Source of the DNA: Rhodovulum kholense
GTDB taxonomy: Bacteria; Pseudomonadota; Alphaproteobacteria; Rhodobacterales; Rhodobacteraceae
Direction: 5' to 3'
DNA length: 64,000 nt
Assembly (NCBI RefSeq): GCF_003053725.1
Contig: NZ_QAYC01000001.1
Coordinates: forward strand, 186,001 to 250,000
The translations under genes were made by a program, and so were the position numbers. The notes under the pieces are model-generated. The model made no database searches, was not told where the DNA came from, and saw only the letters and a program-made list of their open reading frames with translations. Numbering within the stretch: position 1 is the stretch's first letter; each line of letters opens with the position of its first letter. Shown here one piece after another: positions 54,150 through 58,871 of the stretch.

Positions 54150-54539
54150 TCAGGAATTGACCAGCGTGTCGAGCCGGGCGATTTCGGCTTCATCGATCGG
54201 CTTTCGCAGAAAGCTGCGGACGGCCGGAAAGCTTTCGGCGCGTTCGACATCGGTCTCGCTTTCCGAGCTGGTCAGGATCACCACGACCGAATCCTTCAGG
54301 TGGTCCGGCCAGTTTTCGGCGATTTCCTCGAGAAATTCGAAACCGTTCATGCGCGGCATGTTTATGTCGATGATGAGCGCGTCGATCTTGGGGCAGTCCG
54401 GCGTTCGCAGGAAATGAATGGCGTCTTCGGCCATGCCGAATTCAAGCATCGTGTCGACGAGGCCGGTCTTATGAATAAGCCGCTTCACCATCTTCCGTTC
54501 GAACCGGCAATCGTCGATCATCATGAGTGTGTTGATCAC
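54150..54539 (-). CDS. Single-domain response regulator (Rcp1-like)
   Basis: A 129-residue receiver domain with no output domain. The acidic pair is in MIDDCRF, the phospho-acceptor Asp in ALIIDINMPRMNGFEFLEEI, the Thr/Ser switch in VVILTSS, and the Lys in FLRKPIDEAE. The GTG at 54539 is chosen because AAGGAG lies 8 bases upstream. The gene overlaps the 3' end of the sensor kinase gene by 71 bases in another frame, so they are a cognate pair. Output is probably by protein contact. Confidence 0.93.
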   Translation of the reverse strand: MINTLMMIDDCRFERKMVKRLIHKTGLVDTMLEFGMAEDAIHFLRTPDCPKIDALIIDINMPRMNGFEFLEEIAENWPDHLKDSVVVILTSSESETDVERAESFPAVRSFLRKPIDEAEIARLDTLVNS

Positions 54540-57255
54540 CGTTCTTCTCCTTCAGGAAAATCGTGAAACGGCTGCCGTTCTCGGGTGCGGACTGAATCGC
54601 AATACGTCCCCCATGATTGAGGCTTACTCTTTGGCAGATGGCAAGTCCAAGTCCGCTGCCGGGATACAATTCGGTGTCATTGAGCCGGGTGAAAACCTGG
54701 AAAATCCGGCGATGGAATTTCGGATCGATCCCTATCCCCCGATCGGACACGGAAAACGCGACCATTCCGTGCGGTGCTGCGACCGGCTCTATGTCGATCT
54801 GCGGCGCATCTCCGGGGCGGTGGAACTTGATCGCGTTGCCGATGAGGTTTTGCAACAATTGATGCAGCTGACGCGGATTGCCAATAAGGCTTGGCAGGTC
54901 CCCGACTCGGATCTCGGCGCCGCTCGCGGCGATATCGGCGGTCAGGTCCTGAAGCACGTCGGCGGCGACCTTGCTCAGATCGACGGGTTCGACTGCGACT
55001 TCGCCGCCGACCGCGCGGGTGTAGTCCAGAACGTCGCTGATCATCCGGCCCATGCGTTCGAGAATTTCCTTCATGTCTGCAACCAGTTGCACATCATCGT
55101 CGGGCAGCTTTCCGGCGACGGAGTCGGTCAGCGCGTTGGCGATCAGCCTCAGCGTGCTGATCGGCGACTTGAGATCGTGCGAGGTCGCATAGGCGAAGTC
55201 GCGCAGTTCCGAATTGGTCCGCTCGACAATGGAGATCTGGTCGCGCAGCTCGGCGTTCAGCGTCTCGATCTCGGCCAGGTGCCTGCGTTCGCGGGTGACG
55301 TTCAGCACCATGACCAGGATCGACCCGCCGGTCAGGGCAAAGCTCGACCAGCGGAAGCTTTGCCCGGTCGTGGTCCGGAACTCGTAGGAATAGCCGTCGG
55401 TCAGGGCGGGCCCCGACAGGCCCGCAGCCAGCGCGGCGGGGGATTTGGTGCCCCAATGGGCGGCGTCGGCCGCGATCAGCGCGTTGATCGCGTCGCGGTA
55501 GACGGCGCCTTCGCGGATCAGCTCCGGACCCGAGGGGCTGACCGCGCGGGCGGCGGCATTGGCGAACTCGATCCGGCCGTTCGGCGCGACCATCAGAAGC
55601 CCCAGCGGAATCCGCTCGATCATGTTTGCGGTGAAGCGCAGGCGCTCTTGCCGGATGCGGTGGCGCTGAAACGGGATATAGCTCAGCGCGAGGACTGCCA
55701 CGGTGACGATCGCGGCCAAAAGCGACAGCACGCGGCCTTCGGTCCAGAACCCCCGGGGCTCGAGCCAGGCGGCGCGCAGGTCCTGATAGCGCTGCGAGGC
55801 CAGATAGCCGGGCATCACCAGGTTCAGGGCCTCGCGGACCGAGGGCAGGCCCCGCCGCAGCGCCGGCGCCAGATAGATCGTTTCCAGCGGATAGTCGACC
55901 TGAACGACCCTGTCCTCGCGATGCATCTCGGACAGGGTGCGGCGGAGCGCGCTGCTTTCGGCCAGGATCGTGTCGATCCGGCCCTCCAGCAGCGCCGTCA
56001 CCAGTTCGGCATAGGTTTCGAAACGCTGGACGTCGCTGGAATGGCGGCGGGCGACCGCGACCGAGACCCCGGCCCCCCAGGCGCCGACCCGCGCCTTGGC
56101 CAGCCCGTCGAATAGGTCCAGGCTGTCGCTGCGCACGAAAACGCCGATGTCGATGGCCTGAATCGGCAGCGCGAAATCCATCCTCTCCCTGCGGTCCGGG
56201 GTGATGCCGACCAGGGGCAGCACGTCGATGCCGCCCTGCGGGCCCTTGGCCCAGACCTCGGGCGGCACGGGCACGAATTGCAACTGAAGCCCCAGCAGCT
56301 TGCCCAGATCGCGGATCACCTCGACCGCAAAGCCGGTGGTCGATCCGTCGTCATTGACCTGCATGAAGGGCGGCAGGTTCACGACGCCCACGGTCAACAC
56401 CTCTGGCCGGGGCGGCGGCCGATCGACGAACCACTGCCGCCGCAAAGCGGCGAGCGTTCCGTTGGCTTCGAGCGTGTCGATGGCGGCGTTGATCGGACCA
56501 AGCAGATCGGCGCGGCTTTTATGGATGGCGATGACCCGCTCGATCGGCCTGACGGGCGGTCCGACGGCGGCAATCCGGTTGTCCAGCCGGACGCCATGGG
56601 CCAGCCCGACCATCCAGTCCTCGGCCAGCAGGGCGCCGTCGATCTCGCCCGACAGAAGCCGGATCAGCAGGGCATCGGCGTTCTCGAAGACCACGGGCCG
56701 GTTGCGGTCCAGCACCTCGGACGACCCCGAGCCCGCATATTGCCGGACCGTGCCGATGCGCTTGTTCACCGGGGTCACGAAGTCCGGGTTCCGCTCGTTC
56801 TCGATGCGGATGAAAAGCCGGACCTCGGTCCGCCCGACCGGTTTCGAGAAGAGGTTGGACGCTTGCAGCGCGGGAAGGCGCGCGATGGCGGTCATCAGCG
56901 TGGTTTCGCCGTCGATCTGGGCCTGGATCCGCGGTTGAAGACCGTCGAAGCGCCGAAGCTCGATGGGCACGCCCATGGTCTCGGACAGGGCCCGGACCAC
57001 GTCCGCCGAGAACCCGGTCGCTTCGCCATCGTCGCCGATCTGGCCGAAGGGGGCATTCTCGAGCCATCCCGCGACGATCGGCGCCGACGCGGCGTCGGGG
57101 GCGGTCTGCTGGGCCGTCTGGGCCGTCTGGGCGGACAGGGGGGACGGAAGACAGGCTGCGAGGCAAAGAAGCCCCGCAACAAGTGCCCACGCGCCTCGCC
57201 AGATTGCCGAACCTGAACTCCGACGTTCCAATTTGGTCTCCGACCTTCGCCCCAT
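54469..57255 (-). CDS. Sensor histidine kinase with two periplasmic solute-binding domains
   Basis: A 928-residue membrane kinase. A signal sequence (about 1-43) is followed by two SBP_bac_3 domains (about 58-275 and 285-505), which would bind a small ligand in the periplasm. One membrane helix lies at about 507-527 (VLSLLAAIVTVAVLALSYI). The cytoplasmic part has a PAS-like region (RIPLGLLMVAPNGRIEFANAAA), a coiled linker, HisKA with the phospho-His near 692 (YATSHDLKSPISTLRL), and HATPase_c (LLQNLIGNAIKFH, DRGIGIDPKFHRRIF, GSGLGLAICQR). The ligand is unknown. It probably phosphorylates the overlapping receiver protein. Confidence 0.94.
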   Translation of the reverse strand: MGRRSETKLERRSSGSAIWRGAWALVAGLLCLAACLPSPLSAQTAQTAQQTAPDAASAPIVAGWLENAPFGQIGDDGEATGFSADVVRALSETMGVPIELRRFDGLQPRIQAQIDGETTLMTAIARLPALQASNLFSKPVGRTEVRLFIRIENERNPDFVTPVNKRIGTVRQYAGSGSSEVLDRNRPVVFENADALLIRLLSGEIDGALLAEDWMVGLAHGVRLDNRIAAVGPPVRPIERVIAIHKSRADLLGPINAAIDTLEANGTLAALRRQWFVDRPPPRPEVLTVGVVNLPPFMQVNDDGSTTGFAVEVIRDLGKLLGLQLQFVPVPPEVWAKGPQGGIDVLPLVGITPDRRERMDFALPIQAIDIGVFVRSDSLDLFDGLAKARVGAWGAGVSVAVARRHSSDVQRFETYAELVTALLEGRIDTILAESSALRRTLSEMHREDRVVQVDYPLETIYLAPALRRGLPSVREALNLVMPGYLASQRYQDLRAAWLEPRGFWTEGRVLSLLAAIVTVAVLALSYIPFQRHRIRQERLRFTANMIERIPLGLLMVAPNGRIEFANAAARAVSPSGPELIREGAVYRDAINALIAADAAHWGTKSPAALAAGLSGPALTDGYSYEFRTTTGQSFRWSSFALTGGSILVMVLNVTRERRHLAEIETLNAELRDQISIVERTNSELRDFAYATSHDLKSPISTLRLIANALTDSVAGKLPDDDVQLVADMKEILERMGRMISDVLDYTRAVGGEVAVEPVDLSKVAADVLQDLTADIAASGAEIRVGDLPSLIGNPRQLHQLLQNLIGNAIKFHRPGDAPQIDIEPVAAPHGMVAFSVSDRGIGIDPKFHRRIFQVFTRLNDTELYPGSGLGLAICQRVSLNHGGRIAIQSAPENGSRFTIFLKEKNGDQHTHDDRRLPVRTEDGEAAYS

Positions 57256-57476
57256 CCGCCAGAATTAGGCAACACATCTTGACGTTAGGTTAATCTGGCA
57301 TGGTAGCAGAGAGTTTTCGCATTCCAAAGTGGGGGATTCACGATCTCTCCGGGCCGGAATTCGGGCGGGCAATATGGCTGCGGCTTGCGGCCCGGCCTGT
57401 GTGATCAATCCGACAAGTCGTGTTCGGTCCCCGACCGATCGGAAGAAAAATACTTGAAAAACAGTTTCGTATAACT

Positions 57477-57492
57477 TGGCACACGGTGTGCT
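57477..57492 (+). promoter_or_regulatory. Sigma-54-type promoter upstream of modD
   Basis: TGGCACACGGTGTGCT matches the RpoN consensus TGGCAC-N5-TTGC(A/T) with the invariant GG and GC exactly 12 bases apart; one T is replaced by G. It lies about 105 bases before modD. The same stretch contains a perfect palindrome (GCACAC-G-GTGTGC, 57479-57491), so a repressor site is an alternative reading. Confidence 0.55.
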
Positions 57493-57499
57493 ATTCTTT

Positions 57500-57524
57500 C
57501 GATATGAACTTTTAATATATAACG
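57500..57524. promoter_or_regulatory. Molybdenum-box-like (ModE/Mop-type) element
   Basis: CGATATGAA (57500-57508), seven bases, then TATATAACG (57516-57524). The right arm is a perfect Mo-box half-site (TATATAACG); the left arm matches its complement at 6 of 9 positions and the spacer is one base longer than the usual six. Confidence 0.4.
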
Positions 57525-57596
57525 CAGGGCGCGGCGCCCGGTGTCCGCCGGACAGAGCGACGCCCCGATGCCGCGCAACGGAAGGATCTGACCCAG

Positions 57597-58436
57597 ATGC
57601 TGCTGCTTGACGATACAGCCCTCGCCTGCCTCCTGAAACGGGATACGACCGCCGCGCTTTCCGTCGGCACCGGACCGGTCCGGCCGGGCCGGATGACCTC
57701 GGTCGCGATGCGGGCCCGACGCAGCGGTACGATTTGCGGCACCGAAGAGGCCGCGCGGATGTTCGCTCTGCTGGGCTGTGCCGCGGATATTGCGGCCGAA
57801 AGCGGAACGCGGGTGCGGCCCGGCGATCTGCTGATCGCGGCGCGGGGGCCGGCCGAGGCGCTGGTGGGGGCCGCGCAGGCGGTGCAGACCCTGCTGGAAT
57901 GGGCCTCGGGCGTCGCCGACAGCGCCGCGCGCATCGTGCAGGCCGTGCGCCGGGCCAATCCGGCGGTGGCGGTCGCCTGTCCGCGCAAGGCCATCCCCGG
58001 CGCGCGGCCGCTGGCGTTGAAGGCGGTGGCGGCGGGAGGCGCTGCGATCCATCCGGCGCTGCAGCCCGACGCGGCGCTGGTGCTGGCCGAATGCCGGGCG
58101 CTCGGCGGCCCCGAGACGCTGACCGACCGGATCGCGGGCCGGCGGCTGGCGGCGCCGGGCGCGCGGCTCGCGGTCGAGGTGCGCAACCGCGACGAGGCGC
58201 TGGAGGCCGCGGGCTTCGGCGCCGACATCCTTCTGTTGACCCGGATGGCGCCCGATGCTGTCGCCGCCACCTTGCGCGCGCTGGGACCGGACTGGCCGGG
58301 CGAGGTCCTGGCCGCCGGGCCGATCCCCGCCGAGGCCGCCCCGGCCTATGCCAAAAGCGGTATTCACGCGCTGGTCACCTCGGCGCCCTATCACGCGCTT
58401 CCGGCAGAGATCGAACTGGTCTACGAGGCGGGCTAG
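57597..58436 (+). CDS. modD: ModD protein (molybdenum-transport-associated, QPRTase-like)
   Basis: A 279-residue protein homologous to nicotinate-nucleotide pyrophosphorylase (QPRTase). Shared blocks include GTICGTEEAARMFALLGC, AEALVGAAQAVQTLLEWASGVA, and CPRKAIPGARPLALKAVAAGGAAIHP, where QPRTase has the catalytic TRKTxPGxR. ModD is encoded with molybdate transporters in several purple bacteria, but its reaction is not established. Here it stands without modABC in view. GGAAGG lies 11 bases before the ATG. Its stop overlaps the convergent VOC gene by four bases. Confidence 0.9.
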   Translation: MLLLDDTALACLLKRDTTAALSVGTGPVRPGRMTSVAMRARRSGTICGTEEAARMFALLGCAADIAAESGTRVRPGDLLIAARGPAEALVGAAQAVQTLLEWASGVADSAARIVQAVRRANPAVAVACPRKAIPGARPLALKAVAAGGAAIHPALQPDAALVLAECRALGGPETLTDRIAGRRLAAPGARLAVEVRNRDEALEAAGFGADILLLTRMAPDAVAATLRALGPDWPGEVLAAGPIPAEAAPAYAKSGIHALVTSAPYHALPAEIELVYEAG

Positions 58437-58810
58437 GCGGGTTCCGAGATCTCGATCAGGTTGAGGTCCGGGTCGCGCAGATAGATCGACCGGATCGGCC
58501 CGGTCGCCCCGGTGCGCGCCACCGGCCCTTCGACCGGGCGGAGGCCGCGCGCGGCCAGCGCCGCGATCACGTCGTCAAGCGGCCGGTCGGCCAGAAAGCA
58601 CAGATCGAGCGCGCCCGGCACCGGCAGATGCGCCTTGGGTTCGAACTCGTGGCCCTTGACGTGAATGTTGATCTTCTGGCGCCCGAAACACAGCGCTTTG
58701 CGCCCCGCGCCGAAGGTTTCCAGCCGAAGGCCAAGACCCTCCACATAGAAGGCCAGACAGGCCTCTTCGTCGGCGGTGGTCAGCACCAGATGATCGAGCG
58801 CGGAAATCAT
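58433..58810 (-). CDS. VOC family (glyoxalase/bleomycin-resistance fold) protein
   Basis: A 125-residue vicinal-oxygen-chelate protein with two beta-alpha-beta-beta-beta units. Likely metal ligands are His7 in ALDHLVLTTAD, a His in INIHVKGH and Glu in NLIEISEPA; the RSIYLRDPDLNLIEI end is typical. It could be a dioxygenase, glyoxalase or antibiotic-binding protein; the substrate is unknown. ATG 58810 gives the conserved MISALDHL start. Confidence 0.87.
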   Translation of the reverse strand: MISALDHLVLTTADEEACLAFYVEGLGLRLETFGAGRKALCFGRQKINIHVKGHEFEPKAHLPVPGALDLCFLADRPLDDVIAALAARGLRPVEGPVARTGATGPIRSIYLRDPDLNLIEISEPA

Positions 58811-58871
58811 TTCGGCGCCACTCTGCCATGGCCGCCCCGCCCAATGAAAGGTTGATTTTTCCGCGCGCAAG

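Follow-up and report, generated by a model that had tools for sequence, protein, structure and literature searches.

The control region of modD2, a divergent second modD paralogue in the window (the whole 64 kb stretch of Rhodovulum kholense DNA analysed), very probably joins activation by NifA and sigma-54 to repression by ModE-molybdate, which would place modD2 in the molybdenum supply regulon for nitrogenase. To judge from its anatomy, the conserved region before the gene looks built to switch it on solely during nitrogen fixation under molybdenum shortage. A promoter and a Mo-box before modD had been noticed in a sequence-only reading of this DNA, and that observation is confirmed; the strongest element, a perfect NifA enhancer, was absent from it. 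The elements and neighbouring genes are the following:

57400 to 57415, forward strand: NifA enhancer (UAS), TGT-N10-ACA, TGTGATCAATCCGACA, perfect, 77 bases 5' of the sigma-54 element
57477 to 57492, forward strand: sigma-54 -24/-12 element, TGGCACACGGTGTGCT, GG-N10-GC, 9/10 consensus bases
57500 to 57524, forward strand: Mo-box dyad CGnTAT-N13-ATAnCG, CGATATGAACTTTTAATATATAACG, perfect form
57597 to 58436, forward strand: modD2, ATG at 57597, 279 aa, divergent ModD paralogue with a degenerate QPRTase-type active site
54469 to 57255, reverse strand: sensor histidine kinase with SBP_bac_3 domains (Pfam), divergent neighbour of modD2
58433 to 58870, reverse strand: convergent downstream frame (reading frame list), with a similar frame in G001 and G015

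The sigma-54-like match had been credited with correct GG/GC spacing, and this is borne out: read directly, TGGCAC-ACGGT-GTGCT at 57477-57492 has a single mismatch compared to TGGCAC-N5-TTGC. The Mo-box-like dyad described upstream of modD also stands, 57500-57524 being the top-scoring dyad of its type in 64 kb (14/16). The E. coli Mo-box consensus guided the first scan; the Mo-box counts given below use the form of the Rhodovulum boxes themselves (CGNTAT-N13-ATANCG). Counted from the GC as -13/-12, transcription of modD2 would start near 57503; consequently, the Mo-box would lie at about -3 to +22, across the start site, and the centre of the enhancer would fall near -95. In the proposed mechanism, modD2 would be transcribed from one sigma-54 promoter: NifA at 57400-57415 would, under nitrogen-fixing conditions, activate the RpoN holoenzyme at 57477-57492, and molybdate-loaded ModE at 57500-57524 would block the promoter from its position across the start site when molybdenum is plentiful. 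As a result, modD2 would be on only in nitrogen-fixing, molybdenum-short cells, an AND gate in which NifA stands for "fixing nitrogen" and the loss of ModE-molybdate for "short of molybdenum", both being needed. We infer binding, activation, repression and the start site from the sequence of this region, and AND-gate control from the promoter anatomy together with morAB of R. capsulatus. The frame downstream (58433-58870) is convergent, so that modD2 is probably monocistronic, with its own transcript. The histidine kinase on the other side, with tandem periplasmic amino-acid-type binding domains (SBP_bac_3), lies next to modD2 in four Rhodovulum genomes (frames similar to 54469-57255 stand beside modD2 in G005, G001 and G015); no evidence was found of a control region shared between modD2 and this kinase.

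By itself, the sigma-54 match does not exceed chance: the window has 60 such sites with two mismatches or fewer against 63.4 expected. A chance origin of the motif combination is ruled out by shuffles and by conservation. There are two perfect TGT-N10-ACA sites in the whole 64 kb, one of them at 57400-57415, and the window's single enhancer/sigma-54 pair is the one at modD2. When the window was shuffled 200 times with dinucleotides preserved, this pair averaged 0.035 per shuffle, and neither the sigma-54/Mo-box pair nor the trio of enhancer, sigma-54 element and Mo-box appeared (0 in 200 for each). Four other stretches of the same genome (77 kb) showed enhancer/sigma-54 pairs only before nifH and nifE. 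The genome holds 38 TGGCAC-N6-TGC sites: among the 30 that were checked, a perfect enhancer lies within 220 bases at modD2 and nifH only, and the 8 outside this check include the nifE site.

Relatives were compared for loss of the motifs, and the sigma-54 element and the Mo-box are both kept at 8/8 ModD2 promoters. ModD2 orthologues were found in 6 of the 16 Rhodovulum genomes and in 2 of the 5 genomes of a second genus, taken to be Cereibacter; the eight promoters correspond to about four independent lineages, and the closest relative (G005, same genus) has a ModD 96% identical to the ModD2 of the window. All eight have a sigma-54 score of 9/10; the Mo-box is perfect in seven (one mismatch in G005) and always lies 22-23 bases after the first base of the sigma-54 element; the NifA enhancer is perfect in six, 76-78 bases upstream of sigma-54, while the two second-genus promoters have it at 67 bases with a single mismatch. 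Between lineages, identity is 56-84% in the sigma-54 and Mo-box stretches, 22-53% in the linker and 20-42% in the 60 bases downstream; the enhancer window, compared at one fixed offset only, gives 14-68%, its low values being mostly due to shifts by a base or more. The suggested tie between modD and nitrogen or molybdenum status is supported by this conservation, and the NifA enhancer would add a nitrogen link of its own. Of the 15 Rhodovulum genomes with nifH, 9 are without ModD2, indicating an accessory role.

The same comparison bears on the palindrome GCACAC-G-GTGTGC at 57479-57491, previously put forward as a possible repressor site. The palindrome exists and is perfect in the window, but its 6+6 arms are perfect in only 2/10 related promoters (by eye), and it arises in part because the sigma-54 consensus itself reads GCAC...GTGC; it was therefore rejected as a conserved operator. 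Purely accidental motifs, with the palindrome as the repressor site and modD2 read from an unrelated sigma-70 promoter, would agree with the perfect palindrome and with the frequency of sigma-54-like matches in the window, but we consider them very improbable, as the three motifs and their spacing are conserved whereas the palindrome arms are not.

The genome encodes NifA (608.9 bits, cut-off 528.85), one RpoN over its cut-off, and ModE at two loci over the cut-off, one of them a full protein with an HTH and two Mop domains. One NifH gene exceeds the NifH cut-off; it shares a contig with modD2, roughly 44 kb away, and has the NifB and NifA genes as neighbours. The CGNTAT-N13-ATANCG form occurs at 6 sites in this genome compared to 2 for the reversed pattern (88 compared to 29 when summed across 16 genomes), and plausible molybdenum genes lie behind four of the six:

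Mo-box 1: before modD2, 57500-57524
Mo-box 2: 28 bases before modE of modE-modABC-modD, same form and length as the modD2 box
Mo-box 3: between the second modE and a TrmO-like frame
Mo-box 4: 50 bases before a TonB receptor gene, with a FecCD permease gene close by

Site C5:109822 was discounted as coding, as it is inside a 504-aa reading frame and recurs with near-identical letters in several other genomes; site C15:105, at a contig edge, was assigned to no gene.

Several other genes were seen beside Mo-boxes. Four Rhodovulum genomes have a Mo-box just before a TonB-dependent receptor gene (L095 5047, which is C4:5047 of the genome of the window; L100 5080; L102 6366; L103 323), and in three of these four, frames for a FecCD permease and an ABC ATPase lie close by (Pfam named the receptor and the permease in L095 only); these loci are candidates for molybdenum (molybdophore?) uptake across the outer membrane. 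Genes for small TrmO_N (tRNA methyltransferase O-like) proteins lie beside Mo-boxes in L096 (5294-5837, contig C5 of the genome of the window), L071 (10509-10979), L072 (5719-6249), L099 (4862-5359), L100, L103 and L104, and a TrmO_N gene is divergent from modD2 in G004 and G007; the name comes from Pfam in L071 and L099 only, and from similar letters elsewhere. A DUF2478 protein gene (L071 118-666) adjoins Mo-boxes and modE-modABC in G004. In G015 (L101 7645-10489, C1:3587645-3590489), a second NifH-type gene has upstream of it a gene for a NifA-like activator (458.8 bits, below the NifA cut-off); a perfect Mo-box precedes the activator frame by 10 bases, and the sequence looks like an anfA/alternative nitrogenase locus under molybdenum repression.

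The trio, with 19-21 bases from the sigma-54 element to the Mo-box, was also found at two orphan modD genes of the ordinary type and at two modE-modABC promoters:

G434, orphan modD of ordinary type: trio, sigma-54 8/10
G435, orphan modD of ordinary type: trio, Mo-box with one mismatch
G424, modE-modABC operon: trio, Mo-box with one mismatch (by eye)
G006 (Rhodovulum), modE-modABC operon: trio, sigma-54 TGGCCC

In the nine same-genus loci whose modD does not belong to ModD2 (L012-L014, L018-L023), no trio stands immediately upstream of modD, and the same is true of L055-L058, L107, L109, L110 and L122. The G291 modD promoter shows degraded resemblance only (sigma-54 7/10, Mo-box with 5 mismatches) and was left out of the counts. 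A whole-genome scan of 16 Rhodovulum for the sigma-54/Mo-box composite gave 7 matches (six modD2 promoters and the G006 modE promoter), and the reversed pattern used as control gave 0. Family-wide, the composite was matched in 7 of 394 genomes and the reversed pattern in 4; four of the seven carry TGGCAC and were deemed credible (three ModD2 promoters and one modE promoter), and those of G374, G189 and G084, without TGGCAC, were taken as chance.

The modE promoters also bear on the direction of the ModE effect. ModE-type regulators activate some promoters, and the position of the box alone is no proof of repression; the NifA/sigma-54 promoter might be real and ModE might activate or modulate it, giving the highest modD2 expression with molybdenum. 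This seems unlikely to us, as the Mo-box lies over the predicted start and two trio promoters belong to modE-modABC operons, where molybdenum repression is the rule in R. capsulatus (PMC6925177, available portion). Repression by ModE-molybdate is the reading retained here.

A comparable control has been described in Rhodobacter capsulatus, where morAB, a molybdenum-supply gene, needs NifA and is repressed by MopA/MopB (Demtroder 2019, PMC6925177, available portion). Like modD2 as proposed here, it combines NifA/RpoN activation with Mo-box repression by ModE-type proteins; unlike modD2, its promoter drives a ModABC-like transporter, and its control was shown by reporter and proteome, whereas that of modD2 is predicted from sequence. 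According to the same portion of that paper, the R. capsulatus mopA-modABCD operon is under NtrC, not NifA; ModD of this mod operon was detected in the wild-type only without added molybdenum, and it was still detected in a nifA double mutant (table), which counts against NifA dependence. Predicted NifA sites before modD have been reported in R. sphaeroides (RSP_2501), G. diazotrophicus and Z. mobilis (Tsoy 2016, PMC4999443), and the orphan modD of G090 (probably C. sphaeroides; ModD2 clade) is probably RSP_2501; unlike the account of modD2 given here, the available portion of that paper mentions neither a Mo-box nor active-site loss. Both predicted NifA sites upstream of modD and the joint control of morAB by NifA and a Mo-box are already known from the portions of these sources available; a NifA site and a Mo-box together on modD were not found in the open-access literature, one whole-word stem search of it being weak.

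The window's modD had also been called an orphan, not with modABC. This is correct for the copy in the window and incorrect for the genome, which has modE-modABC-modD on another contig; the gene in the window is a divergent second modD paralogue and not simply an orphan modD. The complete operon has the same type of Mo-box as modD2, 28 bases before modE, and the trio was not found in the mod operon stretch; the modE-modABC operons of G006 and G424 have the whole trio, like modD2.

ModD2 has QRPTase_N and QRPTase_C domains (Pfam) and shares sequence family and fold with ModD (TIGR01334) and NadC/QPRTase, from which it differs by a score below cut-off and by lost active-site positions. Against the NCBI ModD model TIGR01334 (cut-off 178.85), the ModD2 of the window scores 155.9 bits, and the three ModD2 proteins scanned are all below the cut-off (155.9, 163.8 and 175.4); the two ordinary ModD scanned reach 260.5 (the copy of its own mod operon) and 257.0 bits. 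A tree of 31 proteins groups the 8 ModD2 in a single clade (support 100/100, branch 0.57), which supports the clade itself, not its attachment point; on this tree the trio needs 3 changes, which may be one gain and two losses. As far as open-access literature searches show, this degenerate clade is undescribed, and the available portions of Tsoy 2016 (PMC4999443) and Demtroder 2019 (PMC6925177) do not describe a degenerate ModD clade. An ordinary ModD is also present in 7 of the 8 ModD2 genomes, and none was found in G433 (260-contig assembly). No relatives of the G090 protein were found in viral contigs.

Active-site columns were placed from a NadC row, and 8 ModD2 were compared with 16 ordinary ModD rows; 140, 201, 222 and 248-250 are the numbers used for further columns. 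For 105, 139, 161, 162, 172 and 175 the numbering is that of M. tuberculosis NadC (PMC4065032, available portion). The 16 ordinary ModD all have Lys at 105 and keep Arg139, Lys140, His161-Arg162, His175, Glu201, Glu/Asp at 222 and the GG pair, and are without Lys172. In all eight ModD2, position 105 is Gln or Pro, the acidic residue at 222 is replaced by Thr, Ala or Arg and the second loop glycine by Pro, Ser or Ala, and the His161-Arg162 pair is not intact; His175 is missing in 4/8 and Arg139 in 2/8. Single changes at 105, 139, 162, 172 or 175 abolished the activity of M. tuberculosis NadC (PMC4065032, available portion), and the loss of residues essential in that enzyme argues against ModD2 running the standard reaction. 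The AlphaFold model of ModD2 (pLDDT 87.3) has human QPRT as best match (TM 0.88), and Nei-Gojobori dN/dS is 0.16-0.37 in six ModD2 pairs (0.18-0.63 in five ModD1 pairs), indicating a gene maintained under purifying selection rather than decaying. ModD2 thus keeps the fold but has lost several active-site positions of the family; that it does not itself catalyse the family reaction has, in our judgement, roughly an even chance. We give somewhat less than an even chance to ModD2 still being a phosphoribosyltransferase-family enzyme that acts on another substrate through a rebuilt active site, which would be compatible with the regulatory explanation: Lys140, Glu201 and the PGxR arginine kept in 8/8, Arg139 in 6/8, purifying selection and the kept fold speak for it, and the positions inactivating in NadC and the residues gone in 8/8 ModD2 and kept in kind in 16/16 other ModD speak against it.

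In QPRTases, the substrate-binding residue 105' is supplied by the partner subunit. This, together with the co-occurrence of ModD2 and ModD1, makes a mixed ModD1-ModD2 dimer an attractive guess, and with Gln or Pro at 105 of ModD2 a dimer of this kind would turn the ModD site off or retune it. We regard as speculative, and rather doubtful, the idea of ModD2 as a paralogue without catalysis of its own that is produced only in cells fixing nitrogen and starved of molybdenum and that pairs with ordinary ModD. No tested reaction for ModD was found in the available portions of the literature examined. The conserved promoter, predicted to respond to nitrogen fixation and molybdenum shortage, says when a ModD phenotype should be looked for (molybdenum-limited diazotrophic growth), and a natural degenerate relative under related control opens a direct comparison of ModD1 and ModD2 for finding the job of ModD. 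If true, the mixed ModD1-ModD2 pair would be a transcription-controlled enzyme modulator in the molybdenum supply to nitrogenase.
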